DNA of 64,000 bases from a bacterium. Lineage in GTDB: Bacteria; Myxococcota_A; Bradymonadia; UBA7976; UBA1532. Where the stretch lies: positions 1 to 64,000 of the forward strand of contig JAUHYW010000040.1 of the NCBI GenBank assembly GCA_030426085.1, written 5' to 3'. The notes under the pieces were generated by a model that had not been told where the DNA came from, searched no databases, and was given only the letters and a program-made list of their open reading frames with translations. Below are positions 1-64,000 of the stretch, piece after piece. How positions within the stretch are numbered: position 1 is the stretch's first letter; each line of letters opens with the position of its first letter. The translations under genes and the position numbers were made by a program.

Positions 1-11150
<11,150 letters not shown>

Positions 11151-24100: not shown

Positions 24101-27100
24101 CGGCGGCGGGAAGTCGACGGTGACCTCGGCGGTGTCCGATCCGCCCTGGCCGTCGTCGGCGGTGATCACGACGGTGTACGGCCGGAAGACGTTGGCCGGG
24201 TAGACGTGGGCCGCCACCCCGCCGGCGTTGGTGGTCGACGGGCCGTCGTCCCCCCACTCGAAGGTGTAGGTCAGGTCGTCGCCGTCGGGATCGGCGGCGG
24301 TGGCGGTCAGCACCGCTTCGAAGCCGTCGACGCCCAGCACCCGGGCGACCTCGATGACCGGCGGGCGGTTGGCGGCGGGGGCCGGGAAGTCGACGTCGAT
24401 CTGCGCCTCGGCGGTGCCGCCCCGGCCGTCGTCGGCGGTGACGGTGACGGTGTAGGTCTCGAAGGCGCCCCGGGGGAAGCCGTGCACCGCGAGGCCGCCG
24501 ACGCTGACCCCCGGCGCGTCGCCGTCGCCCCACTCGAAGGTGTAGACCAGCGCGCCGCCGTCGGGGTCGACGGCGGTGGCCGAGACGACGACCTCGAAGC
24601 CGTCGCGCCCGATCTCGCGCAGGCTCTCGATGACCGGCGGGCGGTTGGCGGCGGGGGCCGGGAAGTCGACGTCGATCTCGGCGGTGTCCTGCCCGCCGCG
24701 GCCGTCGTCCACGGTCACCGTGATGGTGTAGGCCCGGAACTGGCCGGCCGGGTAGACGTGATCGGCCAGGCCGCCCGCGTTCTGGCTCGGCGGGCTGTCG
24801 TCGCCCCAGTCGAAGGTGTAGGTCAGCAGGTCGCCGTCGGGGTCGACGGCGGTGGCCGACGCGACGAGTTCGAAGCCGCTGCGCCCGATCTCGCGGGCGA
24901 CCTCGATGCGCGGCGGGCGGTTGGCGGCGGGGGCCGGGAAGTCGACCTCGACGTCGGCCTGCGCGGTGCCGCCCCGGCCGTCGTCGGCGGTGACGGTGAC
25001 GGTGTAGGCCCGGAACTGCCCCGCGGGGTAGAGGTGCACGCCCACGCCGCCGGCGTTGGTCATCGCCGGGGCGCCGTCGCCCCAGGTGAAGGTGTAGGTC
25101 AGCGGGTCGCCGTCGGGATCGGTGGCGCTGGCCGAGATGACGACCTCGAAGCCGGTGCGCCCGATCTCCCGGGCGAAGTCGATGGCCGGCGGCCGGTTCT
25201 GGGCCGGGGCGGGGAAGTCGACCCGGAGGGTGCGCTGGGCGCTGCCCCCGCGGCCGTCGGTCACCGTGACCGTGACGTCGTAGGCCCGGAAGTCGCCCGC
25301 GGGGAAGTCGTGCACCCCGACGCCGCCCGGCGAGCCGGCCGGCTGGGAGCCGTCGCCCCAGTCGATGGTGTAGGTCAGCGGGTCGCCGTCGGGGTCGACC
25401 GCGCTGGCGGCGATGGCCACCCGGAAGCCGTCCCGGCTGATCTCGTCGAGCCGGGCGATGACCGGATCCTCGTTGGCCGCGGGCCGGGGGAAGTCGATCT
25501 CCAGCGTGCGCCGGGCCTCGCCGCCGCGGCCGTCGCGGGCGATGGCGGTGACCTCGTAGCTCTGGAACTGCCCCTCGGGGTAGGCGTGGGTCGCCACCCC
25601 GCCGGCGTTGGCCGACTGGCTGCCGTCGCCCCACTCGAAGGTGTAGGTCAGCGAGTCGCCGTCGGGGTCGATTCCGCTGGCCGACACGACGACCTCGAAG
25701 CCGTCGCGGCCGATCTGCACGAGCTGGTCGATGACCGGCGGGCGGTTCTCGGCGGGGGCCTCGAACTCGACCCGCAGCGCCTCCTGGGCGGCGCCGCCCC
25801 GGCCGTCGTCGGCGGTGACGGCGACGTCGTAGCCCCGGAACGCGCCGTCGGCGAAGCGGTGCACCGCGACCCCGCCCGCGTTGCGGGTGGCCGGCGAGCC
25901 GTCGCCCCAGTCGAAGGTGTAGGCCACCGGATCGCCGTCGGGATCGGCCGCGCTGGCGGCGACGGTCACCGCGAAGCCGTCGCGGCTGATCTCCACGAAC
26001 TGGTCGACGACCGGCGGGCGGTTCTCGGGCGGGGCCTCGAAGCCGACGTCGAAGGTGTCGCTGGCGCTGCCGCCCCGATCGTCGGTGACCGTGACGGTGA
26101 CCGCGTACGCCCGGAACTGCCCGTCGGGGAACCGGTGGGCCGCGATGCCGCCCCGGTTGACGGTGTCCGGGCTGCCGTCGGCCCAGGCGAAGCGGTAGGT
26201 CAGCGGGTCGCCGTCGGGGTCGCTCGCCTCGGCGGCCAGGGTCACGTTGAAGTCGACGCGGCTGATCTCGAGGATGGCGTCGATGCTCGGCGGGCGGTTC
26301 TCGGCGGGGGCTTCGAACTCGACCTGCACGACCCGCTGATCGCGGCCGCCGCGGCCGTCGTCGGCGGTGATGGTGACGTCGTAGACCCCGAACGCGCCCT
26401 CGGGGAAGACGTGCGCCGCCACGCCGCCCTGGTTGGTGGTCGGCGGGCTGCCGTCGGCCCAGTCGAAGGTGTAGGTGAGCACGTCGCCGTCGGGATCGGC
26501 GGCGCTGGCGGCGATGACGACCTCGAAGCCGTCCTGATCGAGCACCCGGGTGAACTCGAAGCGCGGCGCCTGGTTCTCCGGCGGCTCGGGGAAGTCGACC
26601 GCGAGCTGGCGCTGCGCGGTGCCGCCCCGGCCGTCGTCGGCGGTGATCGTGACGGTGTAGGCCCGGTAGACGCCGTCGGGGTAGGCGTGCTGGCTGATGC
26701 CGCCCTGGGTCACGGTCGGCGGGCTGCCGTCGCCCCAGTCGACGGTGTAGGTCAGGCCGTCGCCGTCGGGATCGACCGCGCTGGCGCTGACGACCACGTC
26801 GAAGTCGTTCTGCCCGACGACGCTGGCCTGCTCGAAGACGGGCGGGCGGTTGTCGAGCTGCACGACCTGGTCGAACAGCGCCGGATCGCCGCCCGACCCC
26901 CGGACCATGCCCGCGATGCGCACCGCGTCGGTGCCCGGCGGCACCTGGAACTCGACCTGGTTCGCCCCGCCGCCGGCCACCTCGTAGCGGCCGTCGGCAC
27001 CCACGTCGAAGAAGTAGCGCAGGGTCGGATCGGCGAACGGCGCCCGCAGATCGCGGGCGGCCGAGACCGTGTCGTCGCCGTCGCTGAGGCGCACCGTCGC

Positions 27101-30013
27101 CCGGTGCTCGGCGTTGGCCGCGACGACCTGGGGGCCGACGGTGCCCCGGTTGCCGGGCACCGGGGCGGTGAAGCCGCCGTCGCCGTTGATGTCGGCCGCG
27201 CCGGTCACCGGCTCGCCGTGCGGGTCGTGCCCCTGGTACTCGAGCCACGCGTCGTAGCGGGTGTCGGGCACCGCGTCGATCGAGGCCCGGTAGCGGCCGT
27301 TGCCCAGGTTGACCACCGAGACGCCGCCCTGGATGGTCGGGCCCCGGCCGGTGTACTGCACCGCCCAGAAGTCGATGATCGGGGGCACGTTGGCCACCGC
27401 GATCTCGATGTCGGCCTCCGAGCGCAGGTCGCCGTAGTCGGTCACCGTGGCCCGGATGACATCGGTCCGGGCGCCGTCCGGATCGGGGGTGTAGATCGGC
27501 CGCGGGCCCCAGTCGCCGTTGCCGCCGGGGTAGCCGGGGGTCGGCAGCAGGGTGCCGTCGCCCTCGATCAGCTCATAGCGATAGGTCATGCCCAGCACGC
27601 CCTCGGGATCGCGGGTGCCGGTGAGATCGAGCGGGGTCTCTTCGCCGGGCTGCGCGCTGTAGGGCCCGCCGGGGTCGATGGCCGGCGGTTCGAGGTTCTC
27701 GACGACGATGACCGAGGCGGTGCCGAAGGCGCACTCCGAGCAGTCGGCCCGGGTGACCCCGTCGTAGCACTCGCCGTTCCACTGCCCGTCGTCGCAGGCC
27801 CGGATGGGGACCGCGATGCGGTCGCCGGCGGCCTGCCCCGGGCGGGGCACGAAGGTCACCGGGCCCAGGGCGCCGTCTTCGCCGGCGTCGTCGAAGTCGC
27901 CGTCGAGGTTGAGGTCGAAGTGCAGCGAGGTGATGCGATCGGGCACGCCCTCGGGGCGGTTGGCGTCGCCGGGGAAGACCGCGTGCTCGGTGTCGACGTC
28001 GTAGGTCGACCGGCCGTCGAGCAGGATCGGGGTGCCCAGGTAGCCGCCGTAGACCGCGTCGCCGCCGTCGGGGTGCCCCACGATGACCGGGACGTGGTTG
28101 CGCAGCGACAGCTCGATCTCGACGTTGGCGTCGTCGGTGACGGTGCGCCCCTCGCTGTCGGTGACCTCGAGCACGACGTTGCGGGTGACGACCTCGCCCC
28201 AGTCGAGGTCGTCGTCGTACTGGAAGACGAGCGGGTCGTTCAGGTCGTCGGTCTCGTGCTCCCAGACGATCTCGTCGTGATCGACGCGCCCGTCGCCGTT
28301 CACGTCGTCTTCGGGGCGATCGATGACATTCCACCGATAGCGCACGATGTGCACGCTGGGATCGAGCACATGGCTCCAGGCGTGGTCGAAGGTGATGTCG
28401 ATGCCCGGCCCGGCGGCCAGCGGGGTGGCCCGGGCCCAGGCCTGGGTCTCGAGCCAGGTCTGGATGATCTGCACCGTCAGGGCGGTGCGCGAGTCCTGGT
28501 TGATGTTGCCCGCCCAGTCCCAGTGGCCGACCCAGTTCCACGAGCCGTTCGCCTGCTGGTGCGGCAGCAGGAACTGGTTGTTCATCGCCGACCAGTCGGT
28601 GCCGTTGGGCAGGTAGGTGATCTCGGGCACGAACGAGCGCAGGCCCTTGGTCATGGCATAGATGTAATACAACCCCCAGAAGCCCTGCCCGGGGCGGATG
28701 CTCTCCAGCGCGCGGACGTGCGCCAGGTGGTTGCCCGCGCCGGAGTAGACCTGGTCGTCGACCCAGCCATAACCCACCAAGGCGTTGCCCGAGAGCTTGT
28801 AGCCCCCGTGGTGGTAGGAACAGTCCCCGTTGGGGCAGTGATTGCCGAGCCACACCCGCTGCTGGTTCTTGGCGTCCTGATAGGTCTCGAGGCCCATCTT
28901 GCGCTCGAGCAGGCGCAGCGACTCGGGGGCCCAGCCGTTGGTCGACGCGTCGGTGGTCGTCCAGTTGCCATTGTCACAGCCATAGTGCCACCCGCCATCA
29001 CTTCGCGAACACTGGATGAGACCGTCGGCCAGATCCTGGCCCAGGCTGCGCAAGGTGCGCCCGCGGATGGCGGCCTGACCGACGGGGGAGACATAGTCCG
29101 GCTCGCCGAAGCTGGCCAATGGCTCGACCCACGCCGTGGAGGCATAGGACGGGAAGTAGCTCTGCCCGCCCAGCACGCCGTTGGTGTAGGTGATGTAGCG
29201 GTCGTGCACGCCTTCCTCGGCGGTGTCGTCGAACCGAGGCGCGCCGCCCGACATGGCATAGGTCGAGATGAGCGCGTGCAGGCCGCATTGGGTGACATGG
29301 CGATAGTAGACGTCGCTGTCCCGCCCCGGCCCGTGGCCATGGCCCCGCCGCAGGAAGGCGTTGATGGCGTGCCCGTGCCCGTACATGTTCGGCGTGCCGG
29401 GGTAGGTGCAGACGTGCACGTTGTTGCCGTGGCTGTCGTCGCCCCGGTGCGAGAAGCGGGTGAACATGTACCACAGCCCGCGATCGACGGCCCGGTTGGC
29501 GTGCACCGTGCGGGTCACCCCCAGGCTCTGGTCACCGGCGCAGTTCTCGTCGTTGGGGTAGTTGGGGCACAGCCGGTCGACGGTCACCTTGACCGGCATC
29601 GTCGCCGAGACCGTCTCGGCCCCGCAGCGGACCTCGACCTTGGGGAAGAACAGCCGGTCGCCCTGGGCATCGGGGAGCTGCACGTCGAGCCCGAGCGCGG
29701 CGAACCAGCCGTTCGAGTTGGCGTTGCGGAGCTGCTCGTTGGCGTCGTCGTAGTCCTGGTCGCCGTTGATGTCCCACCGATACTGGTAGGCCCCGCCGCA
29801 GTCGCCGCCCTCGGCGATCGCTTGCAGCATCGTCGGCCGGCCGTTGAGCGCCGGGTGGGGGATCTCGGATCGGCCCTGGACCCAGTCGACCACGCTGACC
29901 CGGAGCTGGGCTGCGGCGATCCCCGGGATCAGGACGCCGCCGATCAGCGCGAGGGCGGCCAGGAGGTGGGTCGGGAGGCCGGGCGCAGGCCGTGTGTCGC
30001 TTCGTACATCCAT
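21110..30013 (-). CDS. Giant secreted PKD-repeat protein with toroid domain and MYXO-CTERM-like tail
   Basis: The protein is 2967 residues. A signal peptide lies at residues ~15-36 (AALALIGGVLIPGIAAAQ). Residues ~140-535 are Trp/Gly/His-rich helical hairpins (DGGWHYGC, QANGSWNWVGHWDW) resembling prenyltransferase/squalene-cyclase alpha-toroid proteins. Ig/PKD-like modules follow, including IDPGGPYSAQPG at ~780. About 14 close tandem repeats then cover residues ~1055-2345 (consensus DGFEVVVSASAVDPDGDPLTYTFDWGDGSPP, split here as SASAVDPDGDPLTYTFDW and GDGS). More diverged modules end in CACDAGDDSP, a hydrophobic helix and RRRR, the pattern of MYXO-CTERM tails processed for surface display. A GGAGG-type ribosome-binding site precedes the ATG. 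It is probably an outer-surface or extracellular protein; its enzymatic role is unknown. Confidence 0.88.
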   Translation of the reverse strand: MDVRSDTRPAPGLPTHLLAALALIGGVLIPGIAAAQLRVSVVDWVQGRSEIPHPALNGRPTMLQAIAEGGDCGGAYQYRWDINGDQDYDDANEQLRNANSNGWFAALGLDVQLPDAQGDRLFFPKVEVRCGAETVSATMPVKVTVDRLCPNYPNDENCAGDQSLGVTRTVHANRAVDRGLWYMFTRFSHRGDDSHGNNVHVCTYPGTPNMYGHGHAINAFLRRGHGHGPGRDSDVYYRHVTQCGLHALISTYAMSGGAPRFDDTAEEGVHDRYITYTNGVLGGQSYFPSYASTAWVEPLASFGEPDYVSPVGQAAIRGRTLRSLGQDLADGLIQCSRSDGGWHYGCDNGNWTTTDASTNGWAPESLRLLERKMGLETYQDAKNQQRVWLGNHCPNGDCSYHHGGYKLSGNALVGYGWVDDQVYSGAGNHLAHVRALESIRPGQGFWGLYYIYAMTKGLRSFVPEITYLPNGTDWSAMNNQFLLPHQQANGSWNWVGHWDWAGNINQDSRTALTVQIIQTWLETQAWARATPLAAGPGIDITFDHAWSHVLDPSVHIVRYRWNVIDRPEDDVNGDGRVDHDEIVWEHETDDLNDPLVFQYDDDLDWGEVVTRNVVLEVTDSEGRTVTDDANVEIELSLRNHVPVIVGHPDGGDAVYGGYLGTPILLDGRSTYDVDTEHAVFPGDANRPEGVPDRITSLHFDLNLDGDFDDAGEDGALGPVTFVPRPGQAAGDRIAVPIRACDDGQWNGECYDGVTRADCSECAFGTASVIVVENLEPPAIDPGGPYSAQPGEETPLDLTGTRDPEGVLGMTYRYELIEGDGTLLPTPGYPGGNGDWGPRPIYTPDPDGARTDVIRATVTDYGDLRSEADIEIAVANVPPIIDFWAVQYTGRGPTIQGGVSVVNLGNGRYRASIDAVPDTRYDAWLEYQGHDPHGEPVTGAADINGDGGFTAPVPGNRGTVGPQVVAANAEHRATVRLSDGDDTVSAARDLRAPFADPTLRYFFDVGADGRYEVAGGGANQVEFQVPPGTDAVRIAGMVRGSGGDPALFDQVVQLDNRPPVFEQASVVGQNDFDVVVSASAVDPDGDGLTYTVDWGDGSPPTVTQGGISQHAYPDGVYRAYTVTITADDGRGGTAQRQLAVDFPEPPENQAPRFEFTRVLDQDGFEVVIAASAADPDGDVLTYTFDWADGSPPTTNQGGVAAHVFPEGAFGVYDVTITADDGRGGRDQRVVQVEFEAPAENRPPSIDAILEISRVDFNVTLAAEASDPDGDPLTYRFAWADGSPDTVNRGGIAAHRFPDGQFRAYAVTVTVTDDRGGSASDTFDVGFEAPPENRPPVVDQFVEISRDGFAVTVAASAADPDGDPVAYTFDWGDGSPATRNAGGVAVHRFADGAFRGYDVAVTADDGRGGAAQEALRVEFEAPAENRPPVIDQLVQIGRDGFEVVVSASGIDPDGDSLTYTFEWGDGSQSANAGGVATHAYPEGQFQSYEVTAIARDGRGGEARRTLEIDFPRPAANEDPVIARLDEISRDGFRVAIAASAVDPDGDPLTYTIDWGDGSQPAGSPGGVGVHDFPAGDFRAYDVTVTVTDGRGGSAQRTLRVDFPAPAQNRPPAIDFAREIGRTGFEVVISASATDPDGDPLTYTFTWGDGAPAMTNAGGVGVHLYPAGQFRAYTVTVTADDGRGGTAQADVEVDFPAPAANRPPRIEVAREIGRSGFELVASATAVDPDGDLLTYTFDWGDDSPPSQNAGGLADHVYPAGQFRAYTITVTVDDGRGGQDTAEIDVDFPAPAANRPPVIESLREIGRDGFEVVVSATAVDPDGGALVYTFEWGDGDAPGVSVGGLAVHGFPRGAFETYTVTVTADDGRGGTAEAQIDVDFPAPAANRPPVIEVARVLGVDGFEAVLTATAADPDGDDLTYTFEWGDDGPSTTNAGGVAAHVYPANVFRPYTVVITADDGQGGSDTAEVTVDFPPPAENVPPFFEVARELSRDGFGVVVTATAVDPNGDPVTYTFDWGDGSPPTTNRAGLAEHAYPPGDYRAYTVTVTADDGRGGAVATDVEIDFPPPDQNRPPVIEVARVLSVDGFEATLTASAVDPDGDPITYTFDWADDSPPTENRAGLAAHRFPEGEYRTWPVTVSARDGRGGEASAEVEVTFVAPDQNRPPAFELVRELSRDGFEATLAASAVDPDGDPLTYTFDWGDGSPVTRNAGGIAPHAFPDGMFAAYTVAVTVEDGRGGAATEELVVEFVAPDQNRPPVIEELRLVRQEGFEVLAVVGAVDPDGDGLTYTFDWGDAAADTVNRSGLAAHRYPADVYQRYTVAVTVDDGRGGTAEAQASVEYVAPAENRPPVIRGVTLEMGPRGRAELVIEAVDPEGGPLTHFVDWGDAGGELLRLPGGRGSHVYPFAEEPYAGRVTVADDEGLEAQADFAAAVVDSPTVIREITARELRAGTWFFDIVADDPDSPDTLTYAYDFQSDGAWEVLDAENSESVWIYEPPGQYTARVAVTDPWSGARIEDEITVGQDGDNPFRLPPRIEEVFVEIGPGGQTSVAVDAVDPEGGPLSGRIRWGDEEVAEGEEPAWSPLPNLVGEHRYAYDPDEVPYAGVVQVTDDSGLTAEMPFTAPIVDLPTTMLEMAVQDGGAGDVLARATARDPDSAELMYAFDFDGDGTHDTGWLAEGIAQHVYDVGGGHTMTIDVRDPWSGTVTPFEHDFEIEQWVDRPGIADASVQGIEGQCVGFAVGEESLVIGPDDQGCAGAEPPEQDLWTWDFGDGTQATGRDVSHRYADDGSYLARVWGGPPEAPLGAKVAVSIANSPPSFVTEPPELATAGRPYTYAIEVIDAGETDIIRLELMDAPEGMLLTEYDDGRFTLDWDVPPDATGDVIVELRATDGHKIDEAWVPDGGQTTQRYVIRISGDIDPVYSPDYGPPEADVGPTLDDFTGSGCACDAGDDSPAGLLWGLLAIVGLIGLRRRR
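22980..26850 (-). repeat. About 14 tandem PKD-like coding repeats, ~275 bp each
   Basis: A recurrent DNA word (gaccggcgggcggttc and close variants) appears about every 275 bases between ~22980 and ~26850, giving units of about 92 residues. Each unit begins NRPPVIE-like, contains DPDGDPLTYTFDWGDGSP, a G-G-V-A-x-H turn and V-T-V-T-A-D-D-G-R-G-G, and ends VDFPAPAE-like. The units are similar enough to indicate recent duplication or gene conversion. Confidence 0.85.
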
Positions 30014-53898: not shown

Positions 53899-53904
53899 GC
53901 GTCG

Positions 53905-55527
53905 TCAGCCGCCCGGTGCAGGGGGCACCGGCACCGCCTCGACCCGGCCGTCGGTGAGCCGGATGATCCGATCGGCGAGGTGGAAGTAACGCGCGTCGTG
54001 GCTGACCGCGATGACCGCCTTGCCCTGGGCCCGCAGCTCCGCGAGCAGCACCTCGTAGTAGTCCCGTCGCAGCTCGGGATCCTGGTGGGCGGCCCACTCG
54101 TCGAGCACGAAGACCGGGCGATCCTCGAGCATCGCGACGATCATCGCCAGCCGCCGGGCCTGCCCGCTCGACAGCTCGAGGTGGGTGAACGCGTCCCCGT
54201 CGAGATCGGTGACGCCGTGCAGGGCGAACCGCTCGAGGAGCCCATCGACCCGCGCCTGATCCGAGACGTCGAGCCCGTAGGCCCGCTCGAAGAGCACATG
54301 CCGGGCGAAGACGACGGTGAACAGGCTGCGATAGCGATCCAGCCCCACCGCCTGGACCGGCACGCCGTCCAGGCGGACGAGCCCCGCGTCCGGCGGATAC
54401 AGGCCGCAGAGCAGCTTGACCAGGGTCGTTTTGCCGCTGCCGTTTCCGCCCACCACGAACACCAGCTCGCCGGGTCGCAGCGTCAGGTCGACCGGCCCCA
54501 CCCGGAAGTCGGCCTCGGTGTCATAGCCGAACTCGACCCGCTGCAGCTCGATGGATTCGAACGTCCGCAGGGGTTCGCGCGAGCTCTCGGCGTCGGGCTC
54601 GGGCGCCAGCCGATCCCGCCACCCCACGAGGTTGCGCCACGCCGACTCGGCCCCGATGACCCGCTGACCGGCGTTGACCAGATCGACCAGCGGCCCTTCG
54701 GCGAAGAGCACGATCGCCGCCAGGGACAGGATGAGATCGAGCGTGAAGTCCCCTTGGCTGGCGAGGGTGAAGACGACCGCGCCCAGCGCGGCCTGCATGA
54801 CGAAGGTGATCTTGACGTCGGCGTCGCGGTGGGCGTCGTCCCGCCGCTGGCGCTCGACCATCATCCGCTCGGTGAGGGCGTCGAAGTCGGCCGCGAGGTC
54901 GTCGCCGACCGCCCGGTCGAGCTTGAGCTGCGCCGCGCCGGCCAGCATGCGATCGGTCAGCAGGCTCACCTCGGCGAAGACCTCGTCGAAGTCCCCGGCG
55001 GCCTCGAACGACTCGGCGATCTCGTCGCGCAGGATCCAGCCGGCGAAGGCGCAGATACCGACCCAGCAGACGAAGGCCGTCAGCGAGGTGTAGAGCAGGT
55101 ACAGGCTCAGCCCGGCGATCACCGCGCCGTTGAAGACGAGCCCGCCGATCATGCGGGGCAGGTTGGCCAGCGTCTCGACGTCCCGGGTGAACGCCTCGGC
55201 GATCTCGTCGTAGCGCTCGACCGATCGCAGCGAGGTGCCCCGCAGGCGGGTGAGCAGCGCGTTCTGGAACTCGATCAACCGCTCTTCGAGCATCACCACC
55301 GCCCGGGTGCTCGCGGTGCGGCGCAGCGCGAGGCCGCCGACGAGGGCCAGCCCGAAGACGACGACCACCGCCCAGTAGGCCGCCGTCGTGGCCGGCAGCC
55401 GGGCGCCCCAGGTCACCAGCGGGACCAGCACCGCCTCGAGGCCACCGGCCAGCGCCGAGAGCAGCAACACCGGGATCACCCGCCGCCGCGCCTCGCGGTC
55501 GAAGAGATCGAAGACGGACAGCCTCAT
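53905..55527 (-). CDS. ABC half-transporter, cyclic-peptide exporter type (second of pair)
   Basis: The 540-residue protein has six TM segments in an N-terminal exporter domain (VIPVLLLSALAGGLEAVLVPL and onward) without a C39 peptidase. The nucleotide-binding domain at ~340-540 carries Walker A GGNGSGKTTL (~362), signature LSSGQARRLAM and Walker B VFVLDEWAAHQDP, plus VSHDARYFHLADR. The DEWAA(H/D)QDP word is characteristic of the SyrD/PvdE/YojI family (cyclic-peptide transporters). It overlaps the previous half-transporter gene by 4 bases (ATGA). The two are probably a heterodimer that exports the product of the upstream JmjC genes. It is the last gene of the operon. Confidence 0.87.
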   Translation of the reverse strand: MRLSVFDLFDREARRRVIPVLLLSALAGGLEAVLVPLVTWGARLPATTAAYWAVVVVFGLALVGGLALRRTASTRAVVMLEERLIEFQNALLTRLRGTSLRSVERYDEIAEAFTRDVETLANLPRMIGGLVFNGAVIAGLSLYLLYTSLTAFVCWVGICAFAGWILRDEIAESFEAAGDFDEVFAEVSLLTDRMLAGAAQLKLDRAVGDDLAADFDALTERMMVERQRRDDAHRDADVKITFVMQAALGAVVFTLASQGDFTLDLILSLAAIVLFAEGPLVDLVNAGQRVIGAESAWRNLVGWRDRLAPEPDAESSREPLRTFESIELQRVEFGYDTEADFRVGPVDLTLRPGELVFVVGGNGSGKTTLVKLLCGLYPPDAGLVRLDGVPVQAVGLDRYRSLFTVVFARHVLFERAYGLDVSDQARVDGLLERFALHGVTDLDGDAFTHLELSSGQARRLAMIVAMLEDRPVFVLDEWAAHQDPELRRDYYEVLLAELRAQGKAVIAVSHDARYFHLADRIIRLTDGRVEAVPVPPAPGG

Positions 55528-57170
55528 GTGATCCGCCCGTCGGCGAGGTGCAGCCGGCGGTCGGCGGCGTCGAAGTACGCGTCGTCGTGGGTGACGGCGA
55601 TGATCGCCTTGCCCCGGGCGGCCAGCGCCGGCAGCAGCCGGCGATAGAAGCGCTCGCGAAAGCGGGGGTCCTGGTCGGCGGCCCACTCGTCGAAGACCAG
55701 GATCGGCCGGTCGCGCAGCAGGGTGACGACCATCGCCAGCCGCTTGCGCTGGCCCGTCGACAGCTCCACGGTGCTGAACGCGCCGTCGGCGTATCCCACG
55801 ACGTGGTCCAGCTCCATCTCGGCGAGCAGCGCCCGGACCCGGGCCGGCTCGACCCCGCCCAGGCCGTAGCCCCTCTCGAAGAGCGTGAAGTCGGCGAAGA
55901 TCGCGCCGAACAGATCACGCGCCGTCGCCGGAGGCAACGCCGGCATCGGGCGCCCGTTGATCCGCAGCTCGCCGTCGGTGCGGGCGTACAGGCCGGTCAG
56001 GACCTCGAGCAGCGTGGACTTGCCGCTGCCATTGCTGCCCGTGACGAACACCACCTCGCCCGGCCGCAGCGTCAGATCGATGGGCCCGATCGCGAAGCCG
56101 GGGCGCCCTGGCGTATCCGGATAGGCGAAGCGGACCCCGCGCAGCTCGAGCTGCTCGAATCGACCGAAGCCCTCGCCCGACGCATCGGGGGGCTCGCCCG
56201 GCGCGTCCGCCAGCGTCGCGATGAGGCGGTCCATCCGGGCCAGCGCGGCGCCCCCACGAGCCGCCTCGAGCTGGTCGATGATGACGTGGGCCACCGGATC
56301 GAAGACGAACAGGGCGGCGAGCACGAGCCGATCCGCCTCGGCGCTCGCCTCCGGGACGATGTGGGTGTAGCCCAGCGCGAGCGCGCCGATCAGGCAGAAG
56401 AGCAGCCCCTGGGTGACCGCCTCGGTGGTGTTGAACGCGCGATACATCAACTCGCCGCGCCCGAGGTGGGCGGCGGTGTCCGCGGCGTAGGCCGCGCCGA
56501 GCGCCTCGCTGCGCGGCCGGTGCACCTTGACCTGGGCGAACCCGTCGATGACCGACTCGACGACCCCGAACAGCGTCTCCCGGTTGTCTTCGAAGTCCCG
56601 CGCCAGCGCCTCGGCCTGGCTGCCCAGCACGCTGATCGGGATCGCCGACAGCGCCGCGAGCAGCACGAAGAGCGTGACCGATCGGGTGTCGCCGAACAGC
56701 CCGTAGGCGATGGTCAGCGCCGTGACGAGCGTCTCGGAGAGCAGCAGGACGATGATGGGCCCCGCCTCGACCACCCGGGCGGCGTCGCTGGTCAGGCGGG
56801 CCCGGACCGTGGACTGGCCGATCGCTTCGAGCTGACTCAGGCTCGTGCGGCGCAGCTCGGCGACGATGTGGCGCTGCCGGGACGCGACCGCCCGGGTGAA
56901 GGCCCGCGACGCCTTGGTGCGGGCCCAGGTCTCGGCGCCGAGGGTGCACAGCATGCCCAGGGCGAAGAGCGCCGCGAAGCGGGCGGCCGACTCCCCGGCG
57001 CGATAGGCCTCCATCGCGCCGCTGATCGCGATCAGGACCGACACCTGCCCGCAGGCGAGCAGCACGACGTCGGCGATGACCGGCCAGCGCCCGATCCGGG
57101 GATCGGAGAGCAGGACCCCGACCAGACCCCGGAAGTGGGCGAAGGTCTGCCTGTCCGGCAGCCGGTTCAC
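55524..57170 (-). CDS. ABC half-transporter, cyclic-peptide exporter type (first of pair)
   Basis: The 548-residue protein starts at a GTG at 57170. It has an N-terminal TM domain (ADVVLLACGQVSVLIAISG, six helices) and a C-terminal nucleotide-binding domain with Walker A GSNGSGKSTL (~380), signature LSTGQRKRLAM and Walker B ILVFDEWAADQDP, then TVTHDDAYFDAADR-like sequence (VTHDDAYFDAADRR). No leader peptidase domain is present. It is a close structural relative of the next gene and of SyrD/PvdE/YojI exporters. It follows the fifth JmjC gene by 21 bases, in the same operon. Confidence 0.87.
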   Translation of the reverse strand: MNRLPDRQTFAHFRGLVGVLLSDPRIGRWPVIADVVLLACGQVSVLIAISGAMEAYRAGESAARFAALFALGMLCTLGAETWARTKASRAFTRAVASRQRHIVAELRRTSLSQLEAIGQSTVRARLTSDAARVVEAGPIIVLLLSETLVTALTIAYGLFGDTRSVTLFVLLAALSAIPISVLGSQAEALARDFEDNRETLFGVVESVIDGFAQVKVHRPRSEALGAAYAADTAAHLGRGELMYRAFNTTEAVTQGLLFCLIGALALGYTHIVPEASAEADRLVLAALFVFDPVAHVIIDQLEAARGGAALARMDRLIATLADAPGEPPDASGEGFGRFEQLELRGVRFAYPDTPGRPGFAIGPIDLTLRPGEVVFVTGSNGSGKSTLLEVLTGLYARTDGELRINGRPMPALPPATARDLFGAIFADFTLFERGYGLGGVEPARVRALLAEMELDHVVGYADGAFSTVELSTGQRKRLAMVVTLLRDRPILVFDEWAADQDPRFRERFYRRLLPALAARGKAIIAVTHDDAYFDAADRRLHLADGRIT

Positions 57171-57191
57171 CGGGTGGGTTCCGGCCGGTGA

Positions 57192-58211
57192 TCAGTAAGC
57201 GGCATGGCCCCGCAGGATGTCGACGAGGCTCTCCTCGACCAGCCGCTCGAAGATGACGTGGGGGTAATACGAGCGCCCGTGCTCGGCGACATAGTCCCGG
57301 TGGAACGCCTTGAGCCGGCGGTTGCGGCGCCCGGGGCGCTCGTCGGCGCGCACGATCTCGAGCAGCGCGTCCCGGGTGGCGTCATCGACGGGCAGAGCGC
57401 CGGCCTCGACCAGCCGACCGGTGACCCGCACCCGCTGGGCCATCGTCTCGTTGATGATGTGCGAGACGGCGATGTTCCGGCCGTACGAGGTGACATGATG
57501 CCACCAATAACACGGCACATAGAGCATGTCGCCCGCTTCGATGCGCGCCACGTAGGGGGTCGCGTCGGCGAGGCGGGGGAACGCATCCGGATCGGGGCGG
57601 GCGAGGTCGACGTCCGAGCGGAAGTCGCCCGGTCGGGCGTACATCGCCGGCAGATCGCAGACGTCGAACAGCAGGAAGGTCTTGCTGCCCGCGATCTGGC
57701 ACATCAGGTTCTCGTTGTCGTCGTAGTGCAGCGTCGAGACCTGCCCGTCCTGCCCCCACCACAGCGTATGCCGCCGCAGCACGGGGAAGACCGCCGACAG
57801 GCCGTGATCGCCGATGTCGGGGTACAGCGGCGGGGGCAGGTTGAGGTCGTGCACGTAGTGATGGGCGTCGGGGGTGTCGGCGAAGCGCTCGACGAGCTCG
57901 GCGGCGGTCATCGAGATCTGCTCGGTCGCGTCGAGCAGCAGCCGCCCCTCGGCGTCGTGGGGCACCACGTCCACCCGCAGCGGCATCGCGCCCAGCGTCT
58001 CGCGCAGGCGGGCGTCGGTCCACTGCATCGCGGGCCATTCGGCGGCGGCGCCCCGGACGATCAGCGGGCGGTGACGCTCGACGTACTCGGCCCGGAAGCG
58101 GTCCGGGTCGATGCGCTCCACCTCGTCGACCGGCAGGGGAGGGGGCAGCGGGAACCGCGCTGCATCCGGTGTCGACTCAGTCGATGAAGGCATGGCGCAC
58201 CGCTCTGGCAT
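57192..58211 (-). CDS. JmjC/cupin_8-type Fe(II)/2-oxoglutarate oxygenase (E)
   Basis: The 339-residue protein has a single JmjC-like cupin. The facial triad is present as LHYDDNEN (His ~161, Asp ~163) and YWWHHV (His ~237). The Lys that contacts 2-oxoglutarate is likely the one in AGSKTFLLF. The N-terminal RFRAEYVERHRPLIVRGAAAEWPA is the standard opening of cupin_8 proteins such as FIH- and ycfD-like hydroxylases. The family hydroxylates (less often demethylates) protein or peptide side chains. The ATG at 58211 overlaps the previous stop as TGATG; the ATG at 58193 is an alternative. Pairwise similarity with the gene before it is high, so the two look like duplicates. Confidence 0.88.
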   Translation of the reverse strand: MPERCAMPSSTESTPDAARFPLPPPLPVDEVERIDPDRFRAEYVERHRPLIVRGAAAEWPAMQWTDARLRETLGAMPLRVDVVPHDAEGRLLLDATEQISMTAAELVERFADTPDAHHYVHDLNLPPPLYPDIGDHGLSAVFPVLRRHTLWWGQDGQVSTLHYDDNENLMCQIAGSKTFLLFDVCDLPAMYARPGDFRSDVDLARPDPDAFPRLADATPYVARIEAGDMLYVPCYWWHHVTSYGRNIAVSHIINETMAQRVRVTGRLVEAGALPVDDATRDALLEIVRADERPGRRNRRLKAFHRDYVAEHGRSYYPHVIFERLVEESLVDILRGHAAY

Positions 58212-59179
58212 CAGTGATACGCCGTGCGGCGGATGATGTGACTCTGGGGCGTGTCGATCAATCGCTCGGCGATGGCATGTCGGTAATATGAGCGACCCTG
58301 CGCCCGGCGGTACTGCGCGTGATGGCGCCGCAGCCGCTTGAGCTGGATGAGCGGGGGCGCATCGGCGCACAGGATCGCGCGCAGCGCCTCGATCTCTCCG
58401 GCGGCGTCGGGGGTCGTGAGCGCGCCGGCGTCGAGCAGGCGCCGGGCGACCCGGATCCGCTGGGCCCGGCTCTCGGTGATCAGGCACGACACCGCGAGGT
58501 TGCGGCCGTATGACCAGACCTGATGCCACCAGTAGCACGGCACGTAGAGCACGTCCCCCGGCCCGATACGGGCCAGGTAGGGGGTCGCCCGGCTCAGCAG
58601 GCCGTGACGGTCGGCGTCGAGGCGATCGAGATCGGCCGTCGACGTGTCTCCCGGCTCATCGGGCTGGGGATAGACGTGCTCGATGTCGGTGATGTCGAAC
58701 AGCACGAACTCTTTGTACCCGGCGCACTGGTACATCAGGTTCTCGTTGTCGTCGAGGTGCAGGCTCGACCGCTGGCCGTCCCGCCCCCACCACAGCGTCA
58801 TCTCGCCCGGGGGCAGGCACGCGCTCCAGCCCGGCGTCGGCAGATCGGGGCGCAGCCGGGCCGGCAGGGGCTGGTTGAGGATGTAGGGGTAGCGCCCGGC
58901 GTCGTCGAGGGCTTCGATGAAGCGATCGACGTCCATCTCGACGCTGCGCGCCCGATGCAGATCGGGCCGGCCGTCCGCGCCCGGCGGCATGACATCGACG
59001 GTGAACCGCAGCCCGCGCAGGCGCTCGGCGAGCGCGGCGTCGCTCCATGCCATCGCCGGGGTGCCTCTCATCGCGCCCCGCACGATCACGGGCCGATGGG
59101 CCTCGACGTAGTCCGCGCGGAAGGCATCGGCGCTGATCGCCTCGACTTCGTCCACCGGCTCGGGGGGTGGCAGGATCAC
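58211..59179 (-). CDS. JmjC/cupin_8-type Fe(II)/2-oxoglutarate oxygenase (D)
   Basis: The 322-residue protein has the complete triad as LHLDDNEN (~138-140) and YWWHQV (~217), plus CAGYKEFVLF for the cosubstrate Lys. The C-terminus ends YYRHAIAERLIDTPQSHI, matching YYPHVIFERLVEESLVDI in the next gene, so these two genes share the C-terminal domain as well. The start overlaps the double-domain oxygenase gene by 4 bases (ATGA). The sequence gives no indication of substrate. Conservation of the full metal and cosubstrate set suggests an active enzyme. Confidence 0.88.
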   Translation of the reverse strand: MILPPPEPVDEVEAISADAFRADYVEAHRPVIVRGAMRGTPAMAWSDAALAERLRGLRFTVDVMPPGADGRPDLHRARSVEMDVDRFIEALDDAGRYPYILNQPLPARLRPDLPTPGWSACLPPGEMTLWWGRDGQRSSLHLDDNENLMYQCAGYKEFVLFDITDIEHVYPQPDEPGDTSTADLDRLDADRHGLLSRATPYLARIGPGDVLYVPCYWWHQVWSYGRNLAVSCLITESRAQRIRVARRLLDAGALTTPDAAGEIEALRAILCADAPPLIQLKRLRRHHAQYRRAQGRSYYRHAIAERLIDTPQSHIIRRTAYH

Positions 59180-60882
59180 GGGCGACCCTCGGCCATACGG
59201 GCCCGCCAGCCGGCGACGATCGGCGCCATCGCCTCGCTCTCGAGGTGTTCTCTGCCCTTGCGGGCTTCGAGCCGGCCGATGAACTGCTCGGCGTTCGAGA
59301 TGTTGAAGAAGTCGTGCGACACCGAGACCGAGTCATCGATCGCGCGGGTCTGGTGCCACCAGCCATCGGGCAGCACCAGCACGTCCCCCGGCTCGAGCAC
59401 GCAGGTGCGCACCGGCGAGGCGTTGGCGTACAGCGGGAAGCGGCGCAGGTCGGGCGCGGCCAGATCGACGGCGCCGTCGTAGAGCCAGGGGGCGTCGCTC
59501 GCCGGGTGCAGCCACCACCGCTTGCGGCCGACCACCTGGGCCGAGGCGACGTGCTGGCCCAGGCGATCGCTGTGCAGGCCGATGCCCGAGCCGGCGCGGC
59601 CGAGGAAGATCCAGGTCAGGGCGTTGCGATCCCGCGCGGGCAGATCAGCGGTCCAGTCGCGTTCGGGCCCGTCGAGGAAGGGCAGGGGCGTGATGTCGTC
59701 TTCGAAGAGGACGACGCAGTCATCGAGACACCACATGGCATACCGTGGTGGATCCGATGAGCCATCGAGGAAGCGGGCCAGCCGCTCCTTGCGGCTCTGG
59801 TCGTCCCGCTTCTCGAACGACTGCACGAACAAGCGCCCGAAGCGTTCGCGGAGGTGCTCGATGCTCCACGACGAGCGCGCGGGCCAGTGGTCGATCTGGC
59901 CTTCGAGGACGACCGGGCGCCGAGGCTCGAGGTACTGGCTCAGGAGCTGGTCGAAGTCGATGGGCCCCGCGATGCGCTCGACCGGCTCGGTGGCGCGCGC
60001 CGGCAACGCCGCCTGCCAGCGGGGGTGCAGGTCGGCGCTCGCCGCGCGGAACTCGGCGACCTTGGGATCGCCCTCGCTCTGGTGTTCGAGCGCGTAGGCG
60101 TAGGCCGCGTAGTTGGTCTCGTTGACGATGTCATGAGTGATCGAGATCGAGTCTTCGACGATCTCGGTCTCGTGCCACCAACCGACGGGCAGGAACAGGA
60201 CCTCGCCCGGCTCGAGCACGAAGTCGAGGCACGCCGCATCGGCGAAGGCCGGGAAGTGCTCGACATCCGCATCGCGTCGACGCCAGCTCGCCTGCCCGTC
60301 GGCCAGGAACGGCGACATCTCGGGCGGGCTGACCCACCACCGCTTGCGGCCGCAGATCTGGGCCGACCACAGGTGGGTGCCCATGCTGTCCTGGTGGTTG
60401 GCGATGCCCGTGCCCCGGTTGCCCACGAACACCACGTTGGTCTGCCCGTGCAGCCTCTGCGGGAGCTGAAGCAGCCAGTTGAAGTCGGCGTCGCCGAGCA
60501 CCGTGCCGTCGAGCGTGTAGTCCCGGCGGAGCAGCGGCAGCGCCTCGGCCGGGTAGAAGCTCGAGTAGATCGCCTCGCCGCCCCGCATGCGCTCGACGAG
60601 CCGCCGGAAGCGGATCGGCTGGGCGCCGCCCTCGTCGCCGGTGGCGAAGGCGTTGGTGAACAGCCGCCCGAAGCGCTCGGCGAAGTCGTCCAGGGTCCAC
60701 TTCGAGCGGGCGGGCCAGTCATCGATGAGACCCTGCACGATCACCGGCCGCCGGGCTCTCAGCGACTCGACGCGCAGGCGCGCGGCGGTCGCCTCGGACG
60801 CCGGCCAACGCTCGATGGCGGCGCCGTCGTACTGCGCTTCGAGGATCTGTGCGCCCTTGCTCGGCGTGGTGTTCATGCTCAC
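59176..60882 (-). CDS. Tandem double JmjC/cupin_8 oxygenase (C)
   Basis: The 568-residue protein contains two complete JmjC-like domains in one chain. Domain 1 (~1-290) has NHQDSMGTH (His ~162) and GWWHETE (~235), and domain 2 (~300-568) has LHSDRLGQH (~437) and GWWHQTR (~510). Each has the GRKRWW block. Both domains keep the HxD...H ligands, so both may be active. The N-terminal partner is about 40% longer between motifs than most single-domain relatives. The start is probably the GTG at 60882, which overlaps the previous TGA (GTGA); an ATG lies two codons later (60876). Intact tandem JmjC domains in one bacterial polypeptide are unusual. Confidence 0.87.
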   Translation of the reverse strand: MSMNTTPSKGAQILEAQYDGAAIERWPASEATAARLRVESLRARRPVIVQGLIDDWPARSKWTLDDFAERFGRLFTNAFATGDEGGAQPIRFRRLVERMRGGEAIYSSFYPAEALPLLRRDYTLDGTVLGDADFNWLLQLPQRLHGQTNVVFVGNRGTGIANHQDSMGTHLWSAQICGRKRWWVSPPEMSPFLADGQASWRRRDADVEHFPAFADAACLDFVLEPGEVLFLPVGWWHETEIVEDSISITHDIVNETNYAAYAYALEHQSEGDPKVAEFRAASADLHPRWQAALPARATEPVERIAGPIDFDQLLSQYLEPRRPVVLEGQIDHWPARSSWSIEHLRERFGRLFVQSFEKRDDQSRKERLARFLDGSSDPPRYAMWCLDDCVVLFEDDITPLPFLDGPERDWTADLPARDRNALTWIFLGRAGSGIGLHSDRLGQHVASAQVVGRKRWWLHPASDAPWLYDGAVDLAAPDLRRFPLYANASPVRTCVLEPGDVLVLPDGWWHQTRAIDDSVSVSHDFFNISNAEQFIGRLEARKGREHLESEAMAPIVAGWRARMAEGRP

Positions 60883-61844
60883 TCCCGACCGAAGATCATC
60901 TGCCGTGGCCGGGTGAACCGGATCAGGTCGTACAGCGCGTGCGCCCGCGCGTAGCGACCCACGCGGGGGATGACACCCCGGCCGCCGGCGTCCAGCAGCC
61001 GGGTCACTTCGGCGACGTGGTGTGGCTCGATGCGATGGTGGCCCGCTTCGAAGAGCCGGCGGATGACATCACGCAGCGTCTCGTCCCGCTCGTTGAACGC
61101 CCACGAGATCATGATGTTGCGCTCGAAGCTCGCGACCGTGTGCCACCAGTGCGTCGGCACGTAGAGCAGGTCGCCCGGCGCCAGCCGCGCCTCGTAGAAG
61201 GTGACCCGATCGAGCTCGGGGAAGCGCTCGCGGTCGGGTCGGCGCTGATCGAGGGCCGAGTAGTTGACGCTCGTGGGATCCAGCGGGCGGAGGCAGGGCG
61301 ACTCCTCGGGCGCGCACAGGACGAGGTGCTTGCGCCCGGTGATCTGGGCGATCACGTTCTCGTACCAGTCGCTGTGCCAGGCGATGCGGTTGCCGCCCCG
61401 GGTCATGATCAGCCGCCGCCGATAGAACGGCCCGAACGCCTCGAACAGCGGGTGTGGGGCGATGTCGGGCAGCAGCTCGGGGCGCAGCCAGGGATCGACG
61501 TAGTAGTCGTATCGCCCCTCGGGCTCATCGAGGCGATCGAGGAAGGCGCCGAAGGTCATCGGGACCGGCAGAGCGTCGTCGAAGACCCGCCCTTCGAACT
61601 GGTCGGGCGACGTCTCGACATCGATCCGGCAGTGCCCGAGCCGCGCTCTCAGATAGTCGTTGGTCCACCGGGTGATGGCCGGCCAGTCGGCCACGGCGCC
61701 CCGCACGAGCAGCGGCCGGTTGGCCCTGACGTGGCGAGCGGCGAAGTCCTCCACCGTGATGGACTCGACGGCCTCGATCGGGTGGTGGATCAGCGGCCGG
61801 CTCGGGTCGAGGTGCGCAGCGCGCGAAGGTTCGGTGGACTGCAC
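60879..61844 (-). CDS. JmjC/cupin_8-type Fe(II)/2-oxoglutarate oxygenase (B)
   Basis: This protein of 321 residues has WHSDWYEN (His ~156) and HWWHTVASF (~234), with TGRKHLVL for the cosubstrate Lys. The N-terminal VRANRPLLVRGAVADWPAI is the cupin_8 opening. Its HxD context (WHSDWYENVIAQ) resembles the sister proteins with NEN motifs. It starts 12 bases after the end of the previous gene in the operon. The C-terminal ~90 residues are helical and differ from the other members, so it may select another residue or position on the substrate. Confidence 0.88.
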   Translation of the reverse strand: MQSTEPSRAAHLDPSRPLIHHPIEAVESITVEDFAARHVRANRPLLVRGAVADWPAITRWTNDYLRARLGHCRIDVETSPDQFEGRVFDDALPVPMTFGAFLDRLDEPEGRYDYYVDPWLRPELLPDIAPHPLFEAFGPFYRRRLIMTRGGNRIAWHSDWYENVIAQITGRKHLVLCAPEESPCLRPLDPTSVNYSALDQRRPDRERFPELDRVTFYEARLAPGDLLYVPTHWWHTVASFERNIMISWAFNERDETLRDVIRRLFEAGHHRIEPHHVAEVTRLLDAGGRGVIPRVGRYARAHALYDLIRFTRPRQMIFGRE

Positions 61845-61856
61845 CCGGTCGCTCCG

Positions 61857-63002
61857 TCAGGTGTCGCCCGCGGCGCTGTGATCTCGGAAGATACCCAGCT
61901 TCGCGCGGAAGAAGTTCTGCATGAGGTACAGCACGGGGCGGCTGAGCCGATCCGCGTCGGCGAGCAGCGCAGCCCGGGCCCGCGGCTTGACCCGATCCAG
62001 CGCGTCGGCCGCAGCGGCGAGGTCGCCCCCACCGTCCAGGGCCACGGTGTACAACGTGACGAGGCGGGCGTACGTCTCGAATGCGTCGACCCACCAGATC
62101 CCGCCCCGGGCGAGCGCGCTGCTCGTGTCGGCGGCGGTCTCCCGGGGGGCTGACACGAGCCCGTCGATATGGGCCTGCCGCGCGGCGTCGAGCGGGAAGA
62201 CACCCGCCCGCAGCAGCTTGGCGAACGCCATCTGCTGGGCCCGTCGATCGAGGCGCACGTACGACAGCGCGATCGAGCGCCCCGCGGAGCGCACGCTGTG
62301 CCACCAGTAGCCGGGCACGTAGAGCATGTCGCCGGGCTCGAGCTCGACGTCGTAGCGGGTGACGTCGGCGAACCGCGGATGGCGCTCGAGGTCGACCCGA
62401 TCGGGGTCGGCGATCTCGGAGAAGTCGGGTTTGTAGACGTCGTCGTGGGGGTAGAGCCCGCCGAAGTCGGCGATGTCGAAGAGGGTGAAGATCTTCTTGC
62501 CCGCGACGAGCACGTAGACGTTGTCCTCGTCGTCGTAGTGCAGGGGAGCGAATTGATCGCCGCCGCCCATGAACATGCCGACCCGCCGCTCGACGTCTTC
62601 GAGCAGGGCGAAGCCATCGAGCAGCGGTGAGGCCCCCAGGTCGGAGACGAGGACCCCGGGCATGCGGGCGTCGTTGATGTAGCGCCGCTGGTCGTCGGCG
62701 TAGTGATCGAGGAAGGCTGCCAGCCGGGTCGGGCCGATGGGGGACTGGTGGTCGAACCCGATGTCGTCCCGGGTCGAGGTCGTCTCGGCGATCGGGCGGT
62801 AGCCGGCCCGCTGACGCAGGTAGTCATCGCTGCGCCACCGCTCGACGGCCGGCCAGTGCCCCGCTCCACCTCGCAGGACGCACGGGCGGTTGCCCGAGAA
62901 GTACGCTCGGAAGAAGACCGGCGGGTCGATTCGATGCAGTTCGACGACCGAGCGCCGCCGCGTCACCTCGGACGCCACGGCGCTCGCGCTGGCAGGCTCC
63001 AT
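61857..63002 (-). CDS. JmjC/cupin_8-type Fe(II)/2-oxoglutarate oxygenase (A)
   Basis: The 381-residue protein is the first enzyme gene of the operon. Its triad is LHYDDEDNV (His ~154) and GYWWHSV (~234), with AGKKIFTLF for the cosubstrate Lys. The C-terminal ~120 residues form a helical extension (LYTVALDGGGDLAAAADALDR), longer than in the other members. It begins 25 bases after the end of the small leaderless protein gene. As in the others, the family chemistry is 2-oxoglutarate-dependent hydroxylation; the target is inferred to be the product of the first gene. Confidence 0.88.
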   Translation of the reverse strand: MEPASASAVASEVTRRRSVVELHRIDPPVFFRAYFSGNRPCVLRGGAGHWPAVERWRSDDYLRQRAGYRPIAETTSTRDDIGFDHQSPIGPTRLAAFLDHYADDQRRYINDARMPGVLVSDLGASPLLDGFALLEDVERRVGMFMGGGDQFAPLHYDDEDNVYVLVAGKKIFTLFDIADFGGLYPHDDVYKPDFSEIADPDRVDLERHPRFADVTRYDVELEPGDMLYVPGYWWHSVRSAGRSIALSYVRLDRRAQQMAFAKLLRAGVFPLDAARQAHIDGLVSAPRETAADTSSALARGGIWWVDAFETYARLVTLYTVALDGGGDLAAAADALDRVKPRARAALLADADRLSRPVLYLMQNFFRAKLGIFRDHSAAGDT

Positions 63003-63027
63003 GGGCGAAGACTCTCGGCGCTCGGGT

Positions 63028-63393
63028 TCAGCTACGGCGGCGGCGGCGGGTGTACGCGGCAGCGCCCATGCCCTCGAGATCGGCTTCGGGCACGAAGGTG
63101 GGCAGCTCGATCTCCTGCTTGTGCCCGTACTTGAGCTCGACGTAGTTGGGGTTGCTCTTGAGCATGGGCACGGCGACGTAGGTCACGCCGTTGATGGACA
63201 GCTCGCTGCGGTAGATGCTGTCGCCCGCCGGGCCCTCTTCGGGGCCGGCGACCTCCGCCTCGGCGCTCGAGACCGCGTCGCTGTCGAGCTCGTTGTCGAG
63301 GTACTCGGGGTACTGCAAGAGGAAGTCGACCGAGACGTAGAGGACGCCGTCGATCTCGATCTCACTGCCGAAAGGCTTCGCGTTCGGGCTCAT
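63028..63393 (-). CDS. Small acidic protein with internal duplication, candidate substrate (precursor) of the operon
   Basis: The 121-residue protein has no signal peptide and no Cys. Two similar segments are visible: SEIEIDGVLYVSVDFLLQYP (from residue ~10) and SELSINGVTYVAVPMLKSNP (~64), joined by an Asp/Glu/Ala-rich linker. Each repeat also ends P-x-Y. The C-terminus ends YTRRRRRS after EGMGAAA. I recognise no known family. An AGGAG ribosome-binding site at 63402-63406 sets the ATG at 63393. It is the first gene of the JmjC/ABC operon, 25 bases before oxygenase A, which makes it the prime candidate for the modified and exported peptide. It could instead be a small accessory or scaffold protein. 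Confidence 0.7.
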   Translation of the reverse strand: MSPNAKPFGSEIEIDGVLYVSVDFLLQYPEYLDNELDSDAVSSAEAEVAGPEEGPAGDSIYRSELSINGVTYVAVPMLKSNPNYVELKYGHKQEIELPTFVPEADLEGMGAAAYTRRRRRS

Positions 63394-63574: not shown

Positions 63575-64000
63575 ATGCGCCCGATGCCCCCGCTGTCCCC
63601 CATGCCCGAAGCGATGCCCGAGCTGTACGCCCGGCTCGTCGACGCGCGCGCCGAGTGTGCTCCGACCGCCTTCGCACGCAGCGTGCTCGCGGTCCTGAAC
63701 GCTGTGATCGCCCACGACTTCGCCGTGCCCGAGGCGTTCTTCGGCGCCCGCCTCGCCCGGCCGACGGCGTCCGGAGACACCCTGTACGACGTGCTCGCCG
63801 GCTGGGGATACCCCGACTTCACCCGCTGGGTCGAGGCGTCCCGCCGCACGACGCTGGCCCACATCGGCCCCCCGGATGCCCCCCGGATCTGGCGCCTGCC
63901 GGTGTATGTGCACTTCGTCCGCGAGGCCGCCGGGCAGTGCTTCGTCGGGCCGAAGGCCGATGACGACCTGCTCGACGACCTCGACCGCTTCGACGCCGGG
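63575..64000 (+). CDS. Hypothetical protein, 3' partial
   Basis: The frame from the ATG at 63575 is open to the right edge (142 codons). GGAG at 63566-63569 is a suitable ribosome-binding site. The sequence reads MRPMPPLSPMPEAMPELYAR, then AFARSVLAVLNAVIAHDFAV, LYDVLAGWGYPDFTRWVEAS, and VYVHFVREAAGQCFVGPKAD before leaving the window. No signal peptide or familiar motif is visible. It is divergent from the JmjC/ABC operon, so it might be a regulatory or accessory partner, but nothing in the sequence supports a specific function. Confidence 0.6.
   Translation, partial: MRPMPPLSPMPEAMPELYARLVDARAECAPTAFARSVLAVLNAVIAHDFAVPEAFFGARLARPTASGDTLYDVLAGWGYPDFTRWVEASRRTTLAHIGPPDAPRIWRLPVYVHFVREAAGQCFVGPKADDDLLDDLDRFDAG

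Follow-up and report, generated by a model that had tools for sequence, protein, structure and literature searches.

A candidate ribosomal peptide pathway in which a bank of JmjC oxygenases would modify an oligo-arginine tail

What does a bacterial operon act upon when five of its eight genes encode JmjC-type oxygenases? The operon that raises this question occupies positions 53905-63393 of a 64,000-nucleotide stretch of DNA (the window, meaning the whole stretch that was analysed; positions 1 to 64,000 of contig JAUHYW010000040.1, GenBank assembly GCA_030426085.1) from a bacterium of the class Bradymonadia. An earlier note, made from these letters alone, had read it as a pathway in which the small first gene supplies a peptide that is hydroxylated by the oxygenases and exported by two ATP-binding cassette (ABC) proteins. 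The reading that we favour, with moderate confidence, is a pathway of the ribosomally synthesised and post-translationally modified peptide (RiPP) type, in which the JmjC enzymes would hydroxylate an oligo-arginine tail on the product of the first gene, a protease would remove the leader and ABC proteins would carry the peptide out of the cell. The eight genes are co-directional on the minus strand, and the spacings given earlier (25, 12, -4, -4, -1, 21 and -4 bases) agree exactly with the open reading frame (ORF) coordinates.

Gene 1 (63393-63028, minus strand), the precursor peptide gene, encodes 121 residues that match no Pfam or NCBIfam family. The earlier note had made homologues of this gene beside JmjC genes elsewhere its deciding check, and these are found in three genomes of Moorena, marine cyanobacteria, where four of the five JmjC genes follow as orthologues. 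A scan of 84,980 species genomes with an alignment of three of the cluster's JmjC proteins yielded two loci, each in a Moorena genome (L021 and L022). Both begin with a homologue of gene 1, doubled in tandem in L021; next come the orthologues of G2, G6 and G3, then that of G4 with its two domains, and after these a gene for the protease and a convergently oriented one for an ABC protein. A third Moorena genome (L028) carries the same gene set. A small precursor, 57-58% identical between the window and L021 or L022, is thus encoded together with its candidate modifying enzymes in distant hosts, which is one of the marks of a RiPP. This synteny bears directly on the proposal that the operon instead tailors a non-ribosomal siderophore or lipopeptide, its JmjC and PvdE-type ABC genes travelling with non-ribosomal peptide synthetase (NRPS) genes and the small ORF being incidental. 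The nearest plasmid-borne relatives of the Cupin_8 genes do lie in NRPS/polyketide synthase (PKS) or siderophore clusters (Nostoc, Aulosira, Eleftheria, Gloeothece), but NRPS genes are absent from the operon and from beside the Moorena clusters, and no partner is better conserved than the small gene, which has a tandem duplicate in L021. We rejected this proposal on gene neighbourhood, consider it largely refuted by the Moorena synteny, and regard it as very improbable. The Cupin_8 enzymes of cyanobacterial and other NRPS or siderophore clusters are related oxygenases that probably hydroxylate; they differ in being encoded by a single gene beside an NRPS, with no ribosomal precursor. Plasmids of Nostoc, Eleftheria and Gloeothece (L039, L041 and L042) carry single genes of this sort inside NRPS/PKS or siderophore clusters.

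The precursor itself divides into two unlike parts. Its acidic N-terminal part is built from the motif ExxI[DN]GVxYV[SA]VxxLxxxPxY[LV], which occurs twice, at residues 8-33 and about 61-86; this internal repeat has a local score of 58, whereas the highest score among 2000 shuffles was 44. An AlphaFold model of low confidence (pLDDT 50) gives a hairpin-like shape in each repeat and nothing more. The gene had been called leaderless, a description that does not hold in the RiPP sense, as a conserved leader-like region is present, and an AGGAG Shine-Dalgarno-like sequence lies upstream as well. The window protein ends in AAAYTRRRRRS, and we predict the core region at 63028-63060 (minus strand; AAYTRRRRRS and the stop codon). 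Across the five precursors the tails read TRRRRRS (window), FRVRRRRSL and GRRRRSL (L021), SRRRRRL (L022) and TRRRRTI (L028), with RRRR alone invariant; a comparison of the window with Moorena shows little conservation in the stretch that leads up to the tail, and different codons for the arginines. The last 16 residues have a net charge of +4 or +5, and everything ahead of them one of -15 to -21. Among the four Moorena precursors the rate of nonsynonymous differences (pN) is 0.017 in the leader against 0.12 in the last 30 or so columns, the conserved leader and more variable core by which RiPP precursors are recognised. Few ORFs have RRRR among their last nine residues: 4 of 45 at the Moorena loci, all four of them precursors, and 2 of 67 in the sequence examined from this genome. 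The second of these two, a very long ORF (window 21110-30013, minus strand) ending in GLIGLRRRR, has the look of a MYXO-CTERM-like sorting tail, in contrast to the precursor. Its likeness is what speaks for taking the arginine tail as a MYXO-CTERM/GlyGly-CTERM-like sorting tail of a surface protein subject to rhombosortase-type processing. That explanation is hardly credible: in all five precursors, read as sequences, a hydrophobic helix ahead of RRRR is absent and no signal peptide is visible, and the other hosts are cyanobacteria.

The oxygenases are encoded by G2 (63002-61857, 381 residues), G3 (61844-60879, 321 residues), G4 (60882-59176, 568 residues), G5 (59179-58211, 322 residues) and G6 (58211-57192, 339 residues), all on the minus strand. 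The earlier count of six intact JmjC-type sites in five genes was borne out: all five proteins match Cupin_8 (E 1e-34 to 5e-50; 9e-39 for G2) and JmjC_2, G4 contains two domains and two active sites, and each of the six domains keeps the H-x-D...H triad and the 2-oxoglutarate-binding lysine when aligned to JMJD5 (H321, D323, K336, H400). Hydroxylation of arginine at C-3 is the activity of JMJD5 and YcfD (PMC5862942), and the acidic arginine-binding residue of JMJD5, E238, is matched by Glu in G3 and by Asp in G5 and G6. In the RiPP field the JmjC enzyme BipG/PbsQ hydroxylates an arginine-derived ornithine (PMC12707348, PMC12257519). It is the conservation of RRRR together with this family precedent, in JMJD5, YcfD and BipG/PbsQ, that points to arginine as the probable target. 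JMJD5 as the best match in the PDB was also considered as a sign of arginine specificity and was dropped, since a Cupin_8 protein taken as a control, from a different contig of this genome, gives a higher score. Elsewhere in this genome two further groupings of such genes were noted. Three tandem cupin-like genes stand near an adenylation/carrier/reductase-type protein at 4342-7977 (minus strand) of L013 (contig C110, 5000-14477), a JmjC-rich locus in which there is no precursor relative, and two adjoining Cupin_8 domains at about 5300-6850 (minus strand) of L012 (contig C153) form a separate clade with the C31 protein.

Who might release the modified tail? The earlier note had let the unit end at 63393 and had found no leader peptidase in it. 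The unit must be extended, because a divergent gene for a metzincin-like protease of 454 residues starts about 180 bases away, at approximately 63575 on the plus strand, and leaves the window at 64000 to run on to contig position 64939; the absence of a leader peptidase was probably also wrong, as an HExxHxxxxxH protease-like gene belongs to every copy of the cluster. The window protein is 30% identical over its full length to the Moorena protein encoded after G4. Its motif reads HELGHLFQLHH, and it shares with the L021 protein HELGHxFQLxHLG and a downstream NxM...FTxxQAxRAR; we take the former to be the metzincin zinc motif, and together they resemble M43 peptidases. The Pfam match to M43, the pappalysin-type metzincins marked by HExxHxxGxxH and a Met-turn, reaches 13.6 bits, below the cut-off of 23, no convincing relative of solved structure was found for the protein, and its AF2 model (pLDDT 30) is unusable. 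A profile of the protease hits the same genomes as the precursor and no other among the 765 sampled (379 of the window's own phylum and 386 cyanobacterial). We treat it as the predicted leader peptidase.

Export would fall to gene 7 (57170-55524, minus strand, 548 residues, SyrD/PvdE/YojI-like) and gene 8 (55527-53905, minus strand, 540 residues, YojI/PvdE-like). Both carry the Walker B sequences reported earlier, DEWAADQDP and DEWAAHQDP. The nucleotide-binding domains match, with TIGR01194 and PRK10522 (YojI) as the two best NCBIfam models, but both fall below the curated cut-offs, the TIGR01194 scores being 261 and 253 bits under a cut-off of 286.2 (gene 8 scores 262 bits with PRK10522). In the Moorena clusters an MsbA/bacteriocin-type ABC protein takes the place of the exporter, so that the PvdE/YojI-type pair cannot be counted among the fixed parts. 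The earlier idea is thus partly supported: a precursor with a JmjC bank and export passes the note's own check through the synteny of homologues in Moorena, while its statement on leader peptidases is probably wrong.

Taken together, these observations fit a model in which the acidic two-repeat part of the precursor would recruit the enzymes and neutralise the cationic end of the peptide. The C-terminal oligo-arginine tail would be the substrate, and the five to six JmjC (Cupin_8) domains, as 2-oxoglutarate/Fe(II) oxygenases, would place several oxidations on it, most likely side-chain hydroxylations of arginine of the C-3 type. The divergent HExxHxxxxxH protease may then cut off the leader, and the ABC exporters, a PvdE/YojI-like pair here and an MsbA-like protein in Moorena, would export a short cationic peptide bearing hydroxyl groups, which probably acts as an antimicrobial or as a signal. 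Several points weigh against this model. The acid equivalent to E238 is missing in G2 and in both domains of G4, and Y243 of JMJD5 is present in none of the six, for which reason not all six domains need act on arginine. JMJD5 as the nearest solved structure is a non-specific result, the conservation of RRRR comes from two independent lineages only, and the arginine count of four to five does not strictly follow the count of five to six JmjC domains. Furthermore, the type of exporter is not conserved between the window and Moorena, no RiPP recognition element (RRE)-like protein was identified, and the L022 protease (L022:9075-10445) has HDLGH at the zinc site where those of L021 and L028 have HELGH; this may be a sequencing variant or else an allele without activity, so that one Moorena copy of the protease may be inactive.

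The missing acids in three of the six domains also lend something to a different assignment of the target, in which the enzymes hydroxylate conserved Asp, Asn, Tyr or His residues of the repeats (YPEYLDNEL, SNPNYVEL), the repeats are all or part of the product, and the arginine tail is a handle for docking or targeting. No part of the precursor is better conserved than the repeats, which are rich in Asp and Asn, and JmjC enzymes of the FIH type hydroxylate just these residues (PMC5862942). Strong conservation followed by a faster-changing C-terminus is however the usual pattern of leader and core, and a protease-like gene is always co-encoded; we judge this assignment unlikely, if worth keeping in mind. 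Oxidation of the arginine tail might, alternatively, go further than hydroxylation, to desaturation, ring closure of the capreomycidine or enduracididine kind, cross-linking or backbone cleavage. Six oxygenase domains for one short tail are more than simple hydroxylation seems to need, and the chemistry of 2-oxoglutarate oxygenases is varied; yet the characterised JmjC/Cupin_8 relatives (JMJD5, FIH, BipG/PbsQ) hydroxylate (PMC5862942, PMC12707348) and other chemistry is without direct evidence, which makes this possibility distinctly unlikely. Multiple hydroxylation of the arginine tail remains the reading that we favour.

When and where was the set put together? In the tree G2, G3 and G6 each unite the window and Moorena copies with strong support (99/100 for the clade of G2), and the N-terminal domain of G4 does likewise; the three copies of the C-terminal domain stand beside it in one G4 clade, in weakly resolved order. 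Pairwise identities (41-53%) give the same partners, including 50% for G6 and 53% and 50% for the N- and C-terminal domains of G4. G5 is a duplicate of G6 found in the window lineage only, 52% identical to it and its sister in the tree (support 99/98). Because orthologues are united rather than paralogues within one genome, the JmjC lineages would have been assembled before the window and Moorena copies split, and on this phylogenetic evidence the precursor, five JmjC domains and the protease were already together in a common source. As the assembled set now sits in two phyla, transfer is implied. With the precursor profile, this genome was the single match among 379 sampled from its own phylum, and one match came from 386 sampled cyanobacteria; within the genus Moorena three of five genomes matched, and in the rest of the Moorena family none did. 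The precursor alone gave chance-level matches only against 58 close relatives, and no match in plasmids, phages or viral contigs. Synteny with a same-genus genome (G001) continues through AMP-ligase (FadD-like) and APH genes and breaks abruptly at 53899, adjoining the stop codon of the last ABC gene and hence the operon edge, as would suit a mobile or variable segment. On the opposite side no clear orthologue is present in that genome, and insertion of the operon alone is therefore not proven.

Does the locus belong to a described system? Graspetide and microviridin clusters also place a SyrD/PvdE/YojI-type ABC exporter beside a small precursor without a signal peptide. The likeness ends there, as the operon has no ATP-grasp ligase and a different precursor. 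JMJD5 and YcfD (PMC5862942) share the fold family, the HxD..H site, the 2-oxoglutarate lysine and, with G3, G5 and G6, the acidic arginine-binding residue; they modify single sites in host proteins, whereas here five to six clustered domains accompany one small dedicated substrate. The closest parallel in outline is offered by the biphenomycin-type RiPPs (bip/pbs; PMC12707348, PMC12257519), with a ribosomal precursor, a JmjC/cupin-like hydroxylase and release by a metalloprotease. There, JmjC hydroxylation is one late tailoring step among those of a multinuclear non-haem iron-dependent oxidative enzyme (MNIO), a B12-radical SAM enzyme and an arginase, none of which is among the genes of the operon or the Moorena clusters. 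Here the JmjC enzymes are the sole recognisable modifiers, the precursor has no relation to the biphenomycin type, and no TldD-type protease is recognised. JmjC proteins fused to an RRE are noted to have bacterial homologues in RiPP-like contexts (PMC12710340). A pathway built on a JmjC bank alone, with this leader family and an oligo-arginine tail, was not found in the literature covered, from which subscription journals were mostly absent. Neither RiPPs nor single JmjC enzymes that tailor them are new, the latter having been described in 2025; what is new is the combination with a JmjC bank, which belongs to no class that could be tested and plausibly represents a new RiPP class. That it is a class apart, with JmjC enzymes as its only modifiers, oligo-(hydroxy)arginine peptides made from an acidic two-repeat leader, a unit passed between distant phyla and perhaps one JmjC lineage for each arginine position, we consider an evenly balanced proposition.

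If this is true, the RiPP classes would be joined by one that uses neither classic cyclases nor radical SAM or lanthionine chemistry, and in which JmjC oxygenases do the main biosynthetic work instead of serving as lone tailoring enzymes or modifiers of proteins. Its hydroxylated oligo-arginine peptides would represent a new kind of scaffold that is cationic and possibly cell-penetrating. The conserved leader YPEYLDNEL...KSNPNYVELKY provides a ready mining probe for further members. Finally, a set of JmjC paralogues sharing one substrate would make it possible to study how arginyl hydroxylases select their sites.

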